Source: a virus. Taken from it: DNA of 25,665 nucleotides. Location of the stretch: IMG/VR virus record IMGVR_UViG_3300018428_000158, positions 1 through 25,665 of that record; one strand, 5' to 3'. Shown here piece by piece: positions 8,526 to 24,924 of the stretch (positions are counted from its first letter, which is position 1; every line of letters starts with the position of its first letter). Position numbers and translations under genes: made by a program. The notes below the pieces were generated by a model. It was not told the DNA's origin. It worked only from the letters and a program-made list of their open reading frames with translations, and did not search any database.

Positions 8526-8532
8526 ACAAAAC

Positions 8533-8583
8533 TCCTGTTCAAGTTGCGGTCATTATATCACAAAAGATAAAAAAAAGCAAGGG
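8533..8583 (-). repeat. 51-bp direct repeat, copy A (uvsX leader)
   Basis: Identical over 51 bp to 9788-9838. It contains the -35, spacer, -10, leader and the AGGA ribosome binding site core. On its right it directly abuts the TAG stop (8584-8586) of the PD-(D/E)XK-like gene; on its left it runs into the uvsX start. It holds only one arm (CCCTTGC on the minus strand) of the terminator hairpin that is complete at the other copy. Confidence 0.95.
8552..8580 (-). promoter_or_regulatory. Sigma70-like promoter of uvsX
   Basis: On the minus strand: -35 TTGCTT (8575-8580), 17-bp spacer ending TTTTGTGA, -10 TATAAT (8552-8557). The TGTGA before the -10 and the T-rich spacer are shared with the promoters near 9807, 21842 and 24948. 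Confidence 0.8.
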
Positions 8584-9165
8584 CTAAAGTTTCGAACATT
8601 TTACGATTTTATGTTCCTTCGACTTTGGATCGACAAAAATAAAAAAATCAGCATGCGATAATTTCTCTGTTTCAGTGACATTGTAACGTAAATTATGTGC
8701 AGTTTTTATTTGGAAGGTAAACTGATTACCTTTAGTATCAGTGAGGATGGCGTCTATTTTGTAAAGCATATCAATTTCAGATTTATGACCACTAACAAGA
8801 TTTACATTGGAAACGTCAGGATACTGCCTTAAAATATCTACCGCAATATTTTCAGTCTTTTTACCTTTTTCAATACAGTCATCAACAATTTCCTTCATCT
8901 TTTTACAAACATCACTATTCGGGTCAAAAACGTCCGGATCATTTGTAACACACTGGTAAAGGTCTTTCATTTGATCGAGTGGATTTTTATGAGGAATATT
9001 ATACCAAGAGAGCAATTCTTTCCCAAGTTTAACATTTGTAGTTACATAGCTGTAAAAGTAAATGTCTGAAGGTGAGATTTCGTCTAAGTGAAGAAAAAAC
9101 CATTTGTATTTTTTTCCTATGGGACTATCTTGTAAAGCTTCCTTAAAAATCATCATCCAACTCAT
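8584..9165 (-). CDS. PD-(D/E)XK nuclease-like protein of the inserted cassette
   Basis: A 193-residue protein with a possible restriction-endonuclease-like core. A helix with E106 precedes the signature: KIDAIL (D138), a turn DTKGNQ, then FQIKT (Q152, K154), matching the D...(E/Q)xK arrangement. A following strand HADFFIFVDP is also usual for this fold. Its N-terminal 100 residues are unrecognised. The gene is coupled to the upstream ORF by TAATG, and its TAG stop directly touches the 51-bp repeat before uvsX. No full-length family is recognised. It may cleave DNA or be a DNA-repair/anti-defence nuclease; role unknown. Confidence 0.7.
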   Translation of the reverse strand: MSWMMIFKEALQDSPIGKKYKWFFLHLDEISPSDIYFYSYVTTNVKLGKELLSWYNIPHKNPLDQMKDLYQCVTNDPDVFDPNSDVCKKMKEIVDDCIEKGKKTENIAVDILRQYPDVSNVNLVSGHKSEIDMLYKIDAILTDTKGNQFTFQIKTAHNLRYNVTETEKLSHADFFIFVDPKSKEHKIVKCSKL

Positions 9166-9779
9166 TAGACCAAAGGTCGTAAAACAGATTCTAAATCATT
9201 TTTTAGCTGACTAAGCGACATAAATTGACTATACCTGTATTTTTTTTCAAGAGATTCCTTAGAAATACATTTCATCACAAAGAAATCTTGCAAAGGAAAG
9301 TCGCCGTCTCTAAGTTTTCGGGCAGCAGGGTGGTCGTCTTTTTTCACAAGGAACTCCTTTCCTTTACCAAAAAAGTATTCTTGACAGAACCGACCTAAAC
9401 GTAGATTAATATTTCCCTGTTCGCTGTCGCTATACATTATACAGAGAAGCTTCGGCTCTAAGGATGTAATAGGAAAATTTAACATCGGTTCGAAACCATA
9501 GATAAAAGTAAGGCCTTTTTGAGGAACTAAATGTTTTTTACCATAATAGTTAACTCTTTTAGAGGGGGCTTCAAAATCTTCTAGCGAAACCTTCAGGCCC
9601 TGAGAAGTTTGAATTAAAGCCTTTATATAATCAAAGATGCTGTAATTAGGTTCTGTTGTAAATCTGACCCATTTCAAACTTGGGAGCATTTCAAGTTTGA
9701 TATCATTTGCGATATCTACCATGGCATATGGATTTATATTAGATAGGGGTAATACCGCTCTGCGAGATTGCAAATTCAT
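9165..9779 (-). CDS. Unknown protein, first gene of the repeat-bounded cassette
   Basis: A 204-residue protein with no motif I can place. The open frame extends to a TTG at 9797, but the ATG at 9779 (MNLQSRRAVLPL) has an AGGA site 8 bases upstream and is preferred. It is basic with aromatic residues and short hydrophobic strands (LTFIYGFEPML, KLLCIMYSDS, DFFVMKCIS); no membrane segment or signal peptide is visible. The promoter is the second copy of the uvsX promoter. The stop overlaps the next start (TAATG), so this and the PD-(D/E)XK-like protein are probably made together and may form one system, such as a specificity or partner subunit plus a nuclease. Confidence 0.7.
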   Translation of the reverse strand: MNLQSRRAVLPLSNINPYAMVDIANDIKLEMLPSLKWVRFTTEPNYSIFDYIKALIQTSQGLKVSLEDFEAPSKRVNYYGKKHLVPQKGLTFIYGFEPMLNFPITSLEPKLLCIMYSDSEQGNINLRLGRFCQEYFFGKGKEFLVKKDDHPAARKLRDGDFPLQDFFVMKCISKESLEKKYRYSQFMSLSQLKNDLESVLRPLV

Positions 9780-9787
9780 AACATAAT

Positions 9788-9838
9788 TCCTGTTCAAGTT
9801 GCGGTCATTATATCACAAAAGATAAAAAAAAGCAAGGG
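9788..9838 (-). repeat. 51-bp direct repeat, copy B (cassette leader)
   Basis: Identical to 8533-8583 over 51 bp, offset by 1255 bp. Beyond its right end this copy continues with TTCG and the second hairpin arm, which copy A lacks. That suggests this is the intact original junction and copy A a partial duplicate, or that the cassette arrived with its own copy. Confidence 0.95.
9807..9835 (-). promoter_or_regulatory. Sigma70-like promoter of the two-gene cassette
   Basis: Minus strand TTGCTT (9830-9835), 17-bp spacer, TATAAT (9807-9812), identical to the uvsX promoter. The -35 lies inside the stem and T-tract of the terminator at 9825-9856, so termination of the upstream gene and initiation of this unit share bases. 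Confidence 0.8.
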
Positions 9839-9856
9839 TTCGCCCTTGCTTTTTTT
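9825..9856 (-). terminator. Strong bidirectional hairpin terminator after the DUF262-HNH gene
   Basis: The stem GCAAGGG/CCCTTGC (9832-9838 and 9843-9849) closes a 4-base loop (TTCG on plus, CGAA on minus) and is extended by A7/T7, giving up to 14 bp and a T-run on both strands. It lies about 10 bases beyond the DUF262-HNH stop codon at 9866. Confidence 0.85.
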
Positions 9857-9865
9857 CGTTGGCTG

Positions 9866-11332
9866 TTAAGCGGCCAGTCGTTCTAGAATGTCTTGACACA
9901 AGTGATTGGGATAGTCACATCCATAATCTCTCATGAATTCATCCAGATCAAGACCAGACATTTTTTTGTTAATCTTAGCACTTATCACTATAAGATTATC
10001 ATCTTTTGTCGTTCCTCCGTTTTTGAATGATATGATGTGACCACCTTCACACAAATCTAAAGAAATTTTTTCTCCGGAAATTGCGCACCTTCCACCCTGC
10101 TCGTTATACTTTCGAATAATCTGCTCTGTTGTAAAAAGTCTTGGGGAAGAGACTGCAAGACCTGGAATTTTTTCCATGCCCATCATTTCTTCAAGAGGTT
10201 TAAACTTCAAGACCATTTGTTTATTGATGTATTTTGTCATCAAATCAGTAAATTTCATTTTACCTTTTTTACTATCGGCCTCATATAATATTGGATCATC
10301 TGACTTAGAATTTAAAATCAACTCATTTAAGTTTTCAAAAAATGAATCTGAGAATTTTTTGGTGTCCACAATTCTAAAGTCTTTCAATTCCAGATAAACA
10401 ATATATTGAAACAAGTATAACAGTCTTCCTTGACTGGTTAAAACAGCTTTACGCAACCTTCTATTTTTATCCTGCGCCTGATATATTTTTTTCACCTCAT
10501 TCAATATTCTTACAACGTGTTTTGTCGTTGCATTGGCTTCTTCTGGCTCTTTTTGATACCGACTTGTAGTATCGTAGTCTCGGTCCAACTGTTGCTTATC
10601 CAGAGTAAAAATCAAAGAGTTTCGTTTTCTAATGCTTTTTACTATCGAGAACATTTTTGCAACAAGCTCTTCGCATTGTCTAGTTTTGTTTACGTTTAGA
10701 GTGTCAGTTAAAATTTCCCATATTGGGTGCTTTCGATAGCCGTTTTCAATGTCAAGCTCACATGGATTTACCAAACCACGAATTGCTGATGCCCAATAAC
10801 CTTTAAGACCATTTCTCTTTTCTGCGTCACTTAAGGGGTTTCCGTTATTTAACTCAACAAACTTTTCGCATGCGTCAGAGTCTGACATATTTTTGTAAAC
10901 AGTTATGGCAATTCTTATTTTTGAAAAATGTGCTAATTGTTCTTCAGTCAAGTCTTCATATTTCTTACCTGACAGGTGGAACCCTACCCCAACACCTCCG
11001 GATATCGGAACAAAAATACCATCCTCTATAGCAAATTTTTCGACCACATACTGGATGATACAATCAATCCTTTGCAGCCCATCGAGAACCTCATACGTCC
11101 CATCAGGAAGTTGGCGGACATGTATAGTGTTTATTCCACGTCCCTGCCAAAGAGATTTCAATATTTTTCTCATCCACGACTTCGTACCAACCACATTTCT
11201 CTGGTACCAAGGATTTTGACTGATCTTATCATCATGATAAAGATCTATAAGTTTAGATAAAGTCCAAGTCTCAATTACCCAAGGTTGATCAGAATTCAGC
11301 CAAGAACCAGATGTCATAGTTTTTGAGGTCAT
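9866..11332 (-). CDS. DUF262-HNH nuclease (GmrS/GmrD-like restriction family)
   Basis: A 488-residue protein with an N-terminal DUF262 (ParB/Srx-like) domain and a C-terminal HNH nuclease. DUF262 hallmarks are PWYQRN (41-46) and VLDGLQRI (82-89), which in this superfamily bind and hydrolyse nucleotides. The HNH domain shows C416, C428, GGHIIS with H432, GG, DDN with N446, and N455. Such proteins include the GmrSD and BrxU type IV restriction enzymes that cut modified phage DNA. In a phage, it could attack competing phages or act as a selfish nuclease. It has its own promoter and terminator and sits between polymerase-linked genes and uvsX, where T4 has other genes. Frequent long A/T runs suggest composition unlike its neighbours. 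Domain calls are firm; target is unknown. Confidence 0.85.
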   Translation of the reverse strand: MTSKTMTSGSWLNSDQPWVIETWTLSKLIDLYHDDKISQNPWYQRNVVGTKSWMRKILKSLWQGRGINTIHVRQLPDGTYEVLDGLQRIDCIIQYVVEKFAIEDGIFVPISGGVGVGFHLSGKKYEDLTEEQLAHFSKIRIAITVYKNMSDSDACEKFVELNNGNPLSDAEKRNGLKGYWASAIRGLVNPCELDIENGYRKHPIWEILTDTLNVNKTRQCEELVAKMFSIVKSIRKRNSLIFTLDKQQLDRDYDTTSRYQKEPEEANATTKHVVRILNEVKKIYQAQDKNRRLRKAVLTSQGRLLYLFQYIVYLELKDFRIVDTKKFSDSFFENLNELILNSKSDDPILYEADSKKGKMKFTDLMTKYINKQMVLKFKPLEEMMGMEKIPGLAVSSPRLFTTEQIIRKYNEQGGRCAISGEKISLDLCEGGHIISFKNGGTTKDDNLIVISAKINKKMSGLDLDEFMRDYGCDYPNHLCQDILERLAA

Positions 11333-18181: not shown

Positions 18182-18615
18182 TTTACAGTGATATGCTCAT
18201 AATATTTTGTTTCAAGAAGTTCACGATTCTTTAGATGTTGATCTTCAATGTCATCTTTTGACTGCCCATAATACTCTACTGCGAGGTGTTTGTCAATCAT
18301 TAATTGATTCACAGAACATTGTCGGTCAGTTTCGGGATCATACACAATGAATTCACCAAGGATACGACCGAACTTACCTGTCGCATCTTTGTGCGTCTTC
18401 AGTGTACCTTCTTTACCTAACATTGCTTTTAGGAATTCCTTAGCCGCAAGTCCAAATCGCTTTTCCGTTTTATCACGAGTACGGGACTCAGGAGTATCAA
18501 TACCATACAACCTAACGCGCTGGTTACTGAGAATAACATCAAAACCAAGATCAATGTCAATGTCCACTGTATCGCCATCCACCACCTTTTTAATTTTGCA
18601 CCTATACTCATACAT
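18178..18615 (-). CDS. SNase-type (thermonuclease) nuclease
   Basis: A 145-residue OB-fold nuclease of the staphylococcal nuclease family. The catalytic pattern is clear: VVDGDTVDIDIDLG, then R35-LYGID40-TPE43-SR, and GKFGRILGEF with R84. It would cleave DNA or RNA with calcium, perhaps aiding host DNA breakdown or repair. No signal peptide is seen, so it is probably cytoplasmic. Its ribosome binding site (AAGGA) lies in a 23-bp repeat copied from the 3' end of the DUF3310 gene. It overlaps gp62 by ATGA. Confidence 0.9.
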   Translation of the reverse strand: MYEYRCKIKKVVDGDTVDIDIDLGFDVILSNQRVRLYGIDTPESRTRDKTEKRFGLAAKEFLKAMLGKEGTLKTHKDATGKFGRILGEFIVYDPETDRQCSVNQLMIDKHLAVEYYGQSKDDIEDQHLKNRELLETKYYEHITVK

Positions 18616-18636
18616 ATTATTTTCCTTGATTAAAAT
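18614..18636 (-). repeat. 23-bp direct repeat, copy 1 (SNase leader)
   Basis: Identical to 18832-18854. On the minus strand it reads the FNQGK-stop codons of DUF3310 plus the AAGGAAAATAATAT leader. Weaker similarity extends about 20 bp further right in both copies. Confidence 0.9.
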
Positions 18637-18667
18637 TTAAAATTGTTTGTATTCCGCTCAGATTCAT
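18617..18667 (-). pseudogene. 16-residue ORF: duplicated tail of the DUF3310 gene
   Basis: The mini-ORF MNLSGIQTILNFNQGK ends in GIQTILNFNQGK, matching the DUF3310 C-terminus GTQTVLDFNQGK. Its ATG overlaps the stop of the 51-residue ORF (ATGA), so it may be translated. It most likely is a relic of a partial gene duplication that also supplied the SNase ribosome binding site. Confidence 0.6.
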
Positions 18668-18819
18668 ATAGTAGTTTCCTCATGAACTACATAAACTTTC
18701 CATCGAGGATGCCTCTTAGAAAGGTTCTCAGCATACTTCATCAAGCGATTTTTCGACCTGCTACGTTTTTTAACAAAAGTGTTAAAACCATCTTTCACCA
18801 CTATTTTGTATCTCATCAT
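18664..18819 (-). CDS. Small basic protein, 51 residues
   Basis: Starts MMRYKIVVKDGFNTFVKK and is rich in lysine and arginine (KKRSRSKNRLMKYAENLSKRHPRW), ending YVVHEETTI. A GGAG site precedes the tandem ATGs. It fills the gap between the DUF3310 and SNase genes. No family is recognised; the charge suggests nucleic acid binding. It lies exactly between the two 23-bp repeats, so it could be lost by recombination. Confidence 0.65.
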   Translation of the reverse strand: MMRYKIVVKDGFNTFVKKRSRSKNRLMKYAENLSKRHPRWKVYVVHEETTI

Positions 18820-18831
18820 TTAAACTCCACT

Positions 18832-18854
18832 ATATTATTTTCCTTGATTAAAAT
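18832..18854 (-). repeat. 23-bp direct repeat, copy 2 (end of DUF3310 gene)
   Basis: Covers the last codons (DFNQGK) and stop of the DUF3310 gene at 18835 and the following few bases. Identical to 18614-18636. Confidence 0.9.
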
Positions 18855-19266
18855 CTAATACAGTTTGTGTTCCACCTTTAGTTATCGCATCCCACTGTTC
18901 TGGTGTAATATCATCAATACTGTGATGCCCAGGTGCAGGCTGATTCATATAATCTGATAACACTTTAGGTCGTTGACTCTGTTCCTCATCGTGTATGTAT
19001 AACTGTATCAAAGCATAGTGTAAAACTTTCAGCAGGTCTTTTCTATGATCTTCAGGCTTTCCTTTCTTTCCATATCTCTGTGCATACTTCAGCACATTAC
19101 CGATACAGAAACCAGTTCCATGCCCGCCGTCAATAACAAACTCGGTAGCCTGAAACTTTTCCTTTGCATAATGTTGGTCATACGTTGAGTTTACATACTG
19201 ATGAAACTCTTTGATGAGTTCCCCTTCATTGAACTTGTAGTTAGGTGTAATTTCACATGGTTTCAT
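18835..19266 (-). CDS. DUF3310 family phage protein
   Basis: A 143-residue protein with the DUF3310 pattern: FVIDGGHGTGFCIGNVLKYAQR, then GKKGKPEDHRKDLLKVLHYALIQLY. Here the gly-asn-lys-tyr-x-x-arg core and the DL-K-x-x-x-Y helix are recognisable. The domain is common in phages, often near nucleotide metabolism or replication genes, and has no settled function. The N-terminal 45 residues and the C-terminal 45 are extra and less conserved. The C-terminal end has been partly duplicated downstream. Confidence 0.8.
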   Translation of the reverse strand: MKPCEITPNYKFNEGELIKEFHQYVNSTYDQHYAKEKFQATEFVIDGGHGTGFCIGNVLKYAQRYGKKGKPEDHRKDLLKVLHYALIQLYIHDEEQSQRPKVLSDYMNQPAPGHHSIDDITPEQWDAITKGGTQTVLDFNQGK

Positions 19267-23745: not shown

Positions 23746-24206
23746 ACTTGTTCTATTCCCACATTACTGTCAAGTAGAAACTGTTTACCTGACCCCACAT
23801 TTGATTCATAATCATCTGCGTAATAGACTGCAGTGATTCCGCTCTGGTGTATTAATTTAGCACAGTTGATACACGGCATATGAGTCGTAAACATTACAGC
23901 ATCCTTACACGATTCCGAACTCTGTGCTACTTTCGCTATAGCGTTTGTCTCTGCGTGTAAGACTTCATCCTTTGTAATCTTCTTGCAGTATACTTCGTAG
24001 TCAGAAGGATGCATCCAGTCTTCAATCGTTTCGGGGTCGTAGTACTCACACTCGTTATCCCAGCCGGATGGCATTCCATTGTAACCAATGGAAATGATGC
24101 GATTATCTTTTACAATAATCGCACCGACTTGCGCTCGTGTAGCATAGCTAAGTTCGGCAAATGTTTTTGCCGTATTCATATACGCTTCTTTGAATCTACT
24201 CTTCAT
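23742..24206 (-). CDS. cd: Deoxycytidylate deaminase-type enzyme
   Basis: A 154-residue zinc-dependent deaminase, probably converting dCMP to dUMP for dTMP synthesis. The zinc and catalytic motif HAE is at H84-E86 and the second motif PCINC at P111-C115 supplies two cysteine ligands. An insertion with C53, H66 and C74 lies between the first strand and HAE, as in T4 dCMP deaminase, which binds a second zinc there. The ATG at 24206 lies within the end of the preceding gene (11-bp overlap). Confidence 0.9.
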   Translation of the reverse strand: MKSRFKEAYMNTAKTFAELSYATRAQVGAIIVKDNRIISIGYNGMPSGWDNECEYYDPETIEDWMHPSDYEVYCKKITKDEVLHAETNAIAKVAQSSESCKDAVMFTTHMPCINCAKLIHQSGITAVYYADDYESNVGSGKQFLLDSNVGIEQV

Positions 24207-24924
24207 CTAGATACTCGAAACATTCCTTAACTGCTTTAGTTTTTTCGTCTGTGTTATGGTAGTTGAAATAATCTTGTGGAACGTCATGCCACTTTTTTAC
24301 CATCCATCCTACATACGCATAGTATCCTTTGCCATTAGTGTCGCACCAATCGTAGTTGAGTTCGCAATGAGTTTTATCATACCATACTTGCTCAGGCATA
24401 GTAGCAACGTCAGTCTCAACAAATCCAACTTGAAACTTGTTGATATCGAAGGGTTCATTCAGTTCCAAATCAACTTGCCAGAACTGACCTTTCTCTGCGC
24501 TATGAAACATAAGAACAGGAACAACATCTCCGTTCTCTAGTTCTTCGTCGCTAGGCTCTTCACTTCCAGCATAACACTCACGGCTATACACATGAGTAGC
24601 ATCATTCAAACTAAAGATTTCAGGCTCACCAATATCTTCTCCGTCATCATCTACTCGCTGAACATAGACATCCGAATCACCATAGCAACTGTTGAAGTGT
24701 TCGAGGTCGTCTATCTCGTACCAACCACCTGGATTGTATCCTTCGATTGGCTCAGGTGAATCAGAGGTCTCCCAATCTACATCCCAATCACACAATACTT
24801 CGATCAAATCGCCGTCACCATCTTCTTCAACACGCTCTTTCCAATAGCGAACGAAGTCAGCATTGACTGTTCCAATAGCAACTTCACCGCCGTAACGCCC
24901 CGCTCTCACAACATATTTGTACAT
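24196..24924 (-). CDS. Acidic protein of unknown function
   Basis: A 242-residue, strongly acidic protein rich in tryptophan and tyrosine. It begins MYKYVVRAGRYGGEVAIGTV, then alternates acidic turns (EDGDGD, VDDDGED, EEPSDEELENGD) with aromatic strands (CDWDVDW, YYAYVGWMVKKWH). Beta-rich folding is likely. The acid charge recalls DNA-mimic or inhibitor proteins, but that is speculation. A good promoter precedes it, and a GGAG site lies before the ATG. Confidence 0.7.
   Translation of the reverse strand: MYKYVVRAGRYGGEVAIGTVNADFVRYWKERVEEDGDGDLIEVLCDWDVDWETSDSPEPIEGYNPGGWYEIDDLEHFNSCYGDSDVYVQRVDDDGEDIGEPEIFSLNDATHVYSRECYAGSEEPSDEELENGDVVPVLMFHSAEKGQFWQVDLELNEPFDINKFQVGFVETDVATMPEQVWYDKTHCELNYDWCDTNGKGYYAYVGWMVKKWHDVPQDYFNYHNTDEKTKAVKECFEYLDEE

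Follow-up and report, generated by a model that had tools for sequence, protein, structure and literature searches.

How did a tiny gene of 51 residues come to separate the DUF3310 gene from the SNase gene in a marine T4-like phage, and why does the end of DUF3310 occur on both of its sides? In the window, by which we mean the entire 25,665 nt analysed, the minus strand carries in order gp45 and gp44 (names that we assign after T4), orf67, a cell-wall hydrolase gene, DUF3310, the small gene here called p51 (51 aa), SNase, gp62 and regA (Table 1). We believe that the arrangement quite probably records the gain of p51 between DUF3310 and SNase, with a remnant of the older junction left behind as the SNase leader.

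Table 1. Features of the p51 and uvsX loci and of the tmRNA genes that enclose p51; positions are those of the window unless a contig is named.
Feature	Position	Strand	Basis
DUF3310 gene, 143 aa; upstream repeat copy inside its final codons	18835..19266	-	Pfam PF11753 E 2.3e-10; ORF list
Upstream repeat copy: present DUF3310 gene end, stop and 3 nt	18832..18873	-	37/42 identical to downstream copy
GGAG, probable ribosome-binding site for p51	18825..18828	-	sequence reading
p51, putatively inserted gene, 51-residue basic protein	18664..18819	-	missing here in 9 relatives; 13 homologues; pN/pS; model
16-residue mini-ORF, predicted: ATG, then in-frame DUF3310-tail remnant	18617..18667	-	sequence reading
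Downstream repeat copy: probable DUF3310-tail remnant, ancestral DUF3310/SNase junction	18614..18655	-	9 relatives with same junction
AAGGA, SNase Shine-Dalgarno within remnant, 7 nt 5' of ATG	18623..18627	-	sequence reading; relatives have AAGGA too
SNase gene, 145 aa	18178..18615	-	PF00565 E 1e-13; silent-site similarity to relatives higher than that of neighbours
uvsX-side leader copy: promoter-like TTGCTT...TATAAT and ribosome-binding site	8526..8583	-	97% repeat; single in L176, L179, L180
Second uvsX leader copy, before orf210, overlapping terminator-like hairpin 9824-9857	9781..9838	-	97% repeat
orf210 and orf193, putatively inserted genes	8584..9797	-	missing between orf488 and uvsX in L176, L179, L180
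tmRNA genes enclosing p51	L260:9566-10042; L262:4307-4783; similar in L263, L264, L267, L270, L273, L274		

The direct repeat that flanks p51 extends over 18603-18655 and 18821-18873, 218 nt apart, with 43 of 53 positions identical and a longest exact run of 23 nt; its well-matched unit is 42 nt long (18614-18655 against 18832-18873), with 37 identical positions and five differences. Its best ungapped score, 27, was not approached by any of 200 dinucleotide shuffles of a 2.2-kb stretch, which peaked at 17, or by any of 50 shuffles of the entire window, which peaked at 18 with copies up to 500 nt apart allowed. The perfect 23-bp repeat and longer degenerate match noted in the preliminary description of this DNA are thus real. 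Likewise, the DUF3310 C-terminal sequence does recur in a 16-residue ORF ahead of SNase (on reading the sequence, GTQTVLDFNQGK at the DUF3310 end and GIQTILNFNQGK within the 16-codon ORF), and the coordinates place the 51-residue ORF between the copies. Constraint on a short peptide at the C-terminus, combined with a common ribosome-binding sequence, might be supposed to be all that makes the copies alike, given the conserved and AT-rich nature of the last DUF3310 codons. However, we regard this as exceedingly improbable: the likeness reaches past the Shine-Dalgarno, the downstream copy is part of no DUF3310 gene, and the idea is refuted by the shuffles and by the matching position in relatives, described below. 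At the SNase locus the repeat has no Rfam match and no promoter match, a consensus scan listed no consensus promoter or terminator at 18664-18873, and the RNA near the SNase start folds in an unremarkable way (z 0.07).

There are relatives in which the tail of DUF3310 is single. The best 80 of 146 relatives from the SNase search were kept and the upstream DNA was inspected for 21 among those 80: two have the window arrangement, nine run from DUF3310 directly into SNase, and ten carry other genes or a tRNA. In the nine (L005-L007 and L009-L014) the same DUF3310 tail leads straight into SNase, without p51. The terminus pattern DFNQGK-stop was found in 11 viral contigs, two with p51 and nine without, and in 9/9 of the latter the tail is followed by the TATG of SNase. 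The p51-free relatives have AAGGA inside the last DUF3310 codons and the SNase ATG one base past the DUF3310 stop, the junction stretch of L012-L014 reading AAGGAAAGTAGTATG. In BLAST comparisons with each such relative, the window contains an insert of 174-181 nt, and a stretch of 37-44 nt in the relative aligns to two places. An assembly chimera is unlikely, since the window arrangement recurs in two more contigs at 99.85% and 99.94% identity. The preliminary description had proposed a search for relatives lacking both the repeat and the 51-residue gene, and 9 of the 11 contigs with this terminus are of that kind; since single-copy relatives exist, the outcome that it had named as contrary to an insertion or duplication, two independently conserved copies with no such relatives, is not what is found, and the event itself is supported.

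The direction of that event is another matter. According to the preliminary description, a downstream copy of the DUF3310 end provided SNase with a new leader and created a ribosome binding site there. The copies are clearly homologous and p51 is exactly bracketed by them, as this requires, but the tail served SNase without p51 in the nine single-copy relatives, which already have AAGGA at this place, and this largely refutes a newly made leader. In addition, the junction of another phage resembles the SNase-side copy more closely than the partner copy does, with 2/42 differences for the tail of L172 against 5/42 for the partner; the upstream copy differs from the L172 tail at 4/42, and all of these counts belong to tails that differ little overall (2-7 of 42). 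We consider it improbable that the leader was created by copying. Given that the DUF3310 tail of relatives already abuts SNase with AAGGA in its last codons, the leader was kept, not made, and the SNase-side copy is, as far as sequence comparison can tell, the one that holds the ancestral junction. On the same evidence the predicted 16-residue ORF is a remnant of the DUF3310 tail, started by an ATG that overlaps the stop of p51 (ATGA) and ending 1 nt ahead of the SNase ATG.

Could p51 instead be old at this site and have been dropped by the relatives through recombination between the tails? Deletion between direct repeats would yield exactly the arrangement of the relatives, and the window is not nested among them. 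All p51-free lineages lie at about the same distance from the window, so the tree alone cannot polarise gain against loss; the remnant does. What lies 5' of SNase is a fragment of DUF3310, so that DUF3310 must once have abutted SNase, and there are three p51-free lineages against one. We assign little probability to loss and continue with gain. The ancestor would have run from DUF3310 directly into SNase, with the SNase Shine-Dalgarno in the last DUF3310 codons, as its relatives still do. Later p51, apparently a small mobile gene whose family has moved at other sites, would have been placed between the two, as the remnant suggests, and the recombination joint would have left two DUF3310 ends, the present gene end 5' of p51 and the 42-nt remnant 5' of SNase. 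The remnant would have been retained because it carries the ribosome-binding site of SNase, and the mini-ORF, with the remnant in its old frame, may hand ribosomes from p51 to SNase as DUF3310 formerly did. The tail may have been doubled by in-place copying or by unequal recombination between related phages; no donor carrying a DUF3310-p51 junction was found.

Silent sites are compatible with exchange in this region. Silent-site identity to relatives is 75-88% in SNase, against 55-59% in DUF3310, 47-49% in gp44 and 56-67% in gp62, and eight of nine Fisher tests on these sites gave p below 0.005 (SNase versus gp62 for L175, p = 0.097). The excess in SNase fits recent exchange around that gene and does not choose between the routes. 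Relatives switch haplotype in this region as well. When third positions of L169 and L175 are compared, agreement is 100% over the stretch that begins with gp45 and ends with the hydrolase, and falls to 94% in DUF3310, 77% in SNase and 52% in gp62. This abrupt divergence across SNase and gp62 makes the border look like a repeated recombination point. Over the last 20 DUF3310 codons, L172 gives the only comparison in which silent-site identity is raised (p 0.02), and the signal is gone once the last four codons are dropped, so that no one haplotype can be named for the upstream copy. Such an assignment had looked convincing from raw third-position counts (17, 15 and 13 of these 20); it was dropped, as the signal survives against L172 alone when only codons for the same amino acid are compared. 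Replacement of the whole gp45-DUF3310 block was also rejected as the main reading: gp62 and regA downstream are about equally diverged at silent sites, with SNase the exception.

In databases, the window p51 has no significant family and no Pfam match, and weak matches to it or its relatives in Pfam, PHROG and PADLOC were set aside; p51-like matches downstream of DUF3310 in L085/L086 were noise (E about 2-3). A tblastn search of the phage collection gave no match, and in genome contigs the p51 pattern found 70 stretches and 0 relatives. The pattern of the p51 C-terminus gave 20 stretches, comprising two of the window arrangement, 13 true homologues and five chance matches. The homologues, one of them partial, have phmmer E values of 1e-8 to 1e-19; six that were aligned are 62-64% identical to the window p51, with 30 invariant columns in the seven sequences. 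Diverged pairs have pN/pS of 0.14-0.41, which indicates a protein under selection (L266 against L260 and L267 gives 0.48 on six changes, too few to judge). A confident single-sequence model (pLDDT 89) has a predicted strand-strand-helix-strand fold, and its structural matches are weak, with one DUF2188-named viral model at E 0.06 and no PDB match under E 0.2. Judged from these alignments, p51 is a conserved family under purifying selection, present at unrelated sites.

One kind of site is the tmRNA gene. An ARAGORN scan of 14 p51 loci was positive for 8/14, with p51 between the halves of a permuted tmRNA (L260, L262, L263, L264, L267, L270, L273 and L274); L269 is a ninth carrier, by Rfam only and cut off at its 3' end, and L261, which ends at p51, was outside the scan. 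The nine contigs represent few lineages (L260/L264/L274 are 99.98% and L262/L263 99.85% identical). The tags readable in these genes include ANDSRFALAA and ANDELYALAA. The window itself has no tmRNA. Elsewhere, p51 lies directly 5' of the dCMP deaminase gene in L259 and L268, an interval occupied in the window by g24924, and in L266 it lies about 0.6 kb before a tmRNA without p51. Compared with L172, g24924 (window 24196-24924) is itself an insertion, and a clean one that shows an overlap of 6 nt.

The L266 gene is informative on how p51 moves. A cassette of 167 nt (L266:5319-5485 and L260:9654-9820) is 95.8% identical between contigs whose other listed matches are 64-78%, and its edges are sharp: one is the CCA end of the tmRNA half in L260, the other the p51 stop. 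What travels is thus hardly more than the p51 reading frame itself, the behaviour of a small mobile gene. With the direction of transfer that we infer, the L266 p51 carries a scrap of its former neighbour, like the DUF3310 scrap on the SNase side. A broader proposal, which we find possible but doubtful, is that p51 settles at RNA or translation borders, namely a gene tail and the start codon served by that tail's ribosome-binding site, the position before another gene's start, and the excised segment of a tmRNA, and that it is tolerated there since each insertion keeps or copies the leader of the host gene.

The preliminary description also drew a parallel with a repeat before uvsX, and this holds, the repeat being 58 nt long and 97% identical (8526-8583 and 9781-9838) rather than 51 bp. 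Between orf488 and uvsX, the window has two genes, orf210 and orf193, bracketed by both copies of the uvsX leader, whereas three single-copy relatives (L176, L179 and L180) have orf488, one leader and then uvsX; L178, L181 and L182 are without orf488 too. The layout in the window is leader, new genes, leader, old gene, in contrast to the clean insertion of g24924. As side observations, orf210 and orf193 are without database families, and orf488 (window 9866-11332) resembles NsnA and other defence-related PADLOC models (best E 1.2e-17).

Morons are lone genes inserted where related phages have two genes side by side. p51 resembles them as one gene between neighbours that touch in relatives, being missing between the same neighbours in nine p51-free contigs. 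It differs in that a consensus scan revealed no promoter or terminator of its own, and in that the end of the upstream gene, holding the downstream gene's ribosome-binding site, is present on both of its sides. A second comparison is with PeSLs (promoter plus stem-loop), mobile regulatory cassettes of T4-type phages (Arbiol 2010 and Comeau 2014, as cited in PMC4503421 and PMC3950731). As with PeSLs, repeated leaders stand at module borders, and the uvsX leader, which joins a hairpin to a promoter-like site, is a candidate of this kind; the copy at 9781-9857 has the hairpin and promoter-like hexamers, and the uvsX-side copy only half the hairpin. In contrast, what is repeated at the SNase locus is the tail of a gene; it carries a ribosome-binding site and neither promoter nor hairpin, and does not qualify as a PeSL. 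Finally, in nine contigs a permuted tmRNA gene (Rfam RF04321; PMC11915505) has a p51 relative within its intervening segment. The available part of PMC11915505 reports a tRNA gene in one such segment and mentions no protein gene, and the titles and abstract openings listed from open-licence literature describe neither a tmRNA whose intervening segment contains a protein gene nor an insertion like that of p51.

One would not expect to find a protein gene within a phage tmRNA. At the SNase locus, gene gain in a compact phage genome would have left a legible scar, in which the ancestral site, the insert and a retained regulatory scrap can each be read. Moreover, at two insertions within the same 25 kb the gene downstream keeps its leader because the leader is doubled, and tight operons may acquire genes by some such simple rule.
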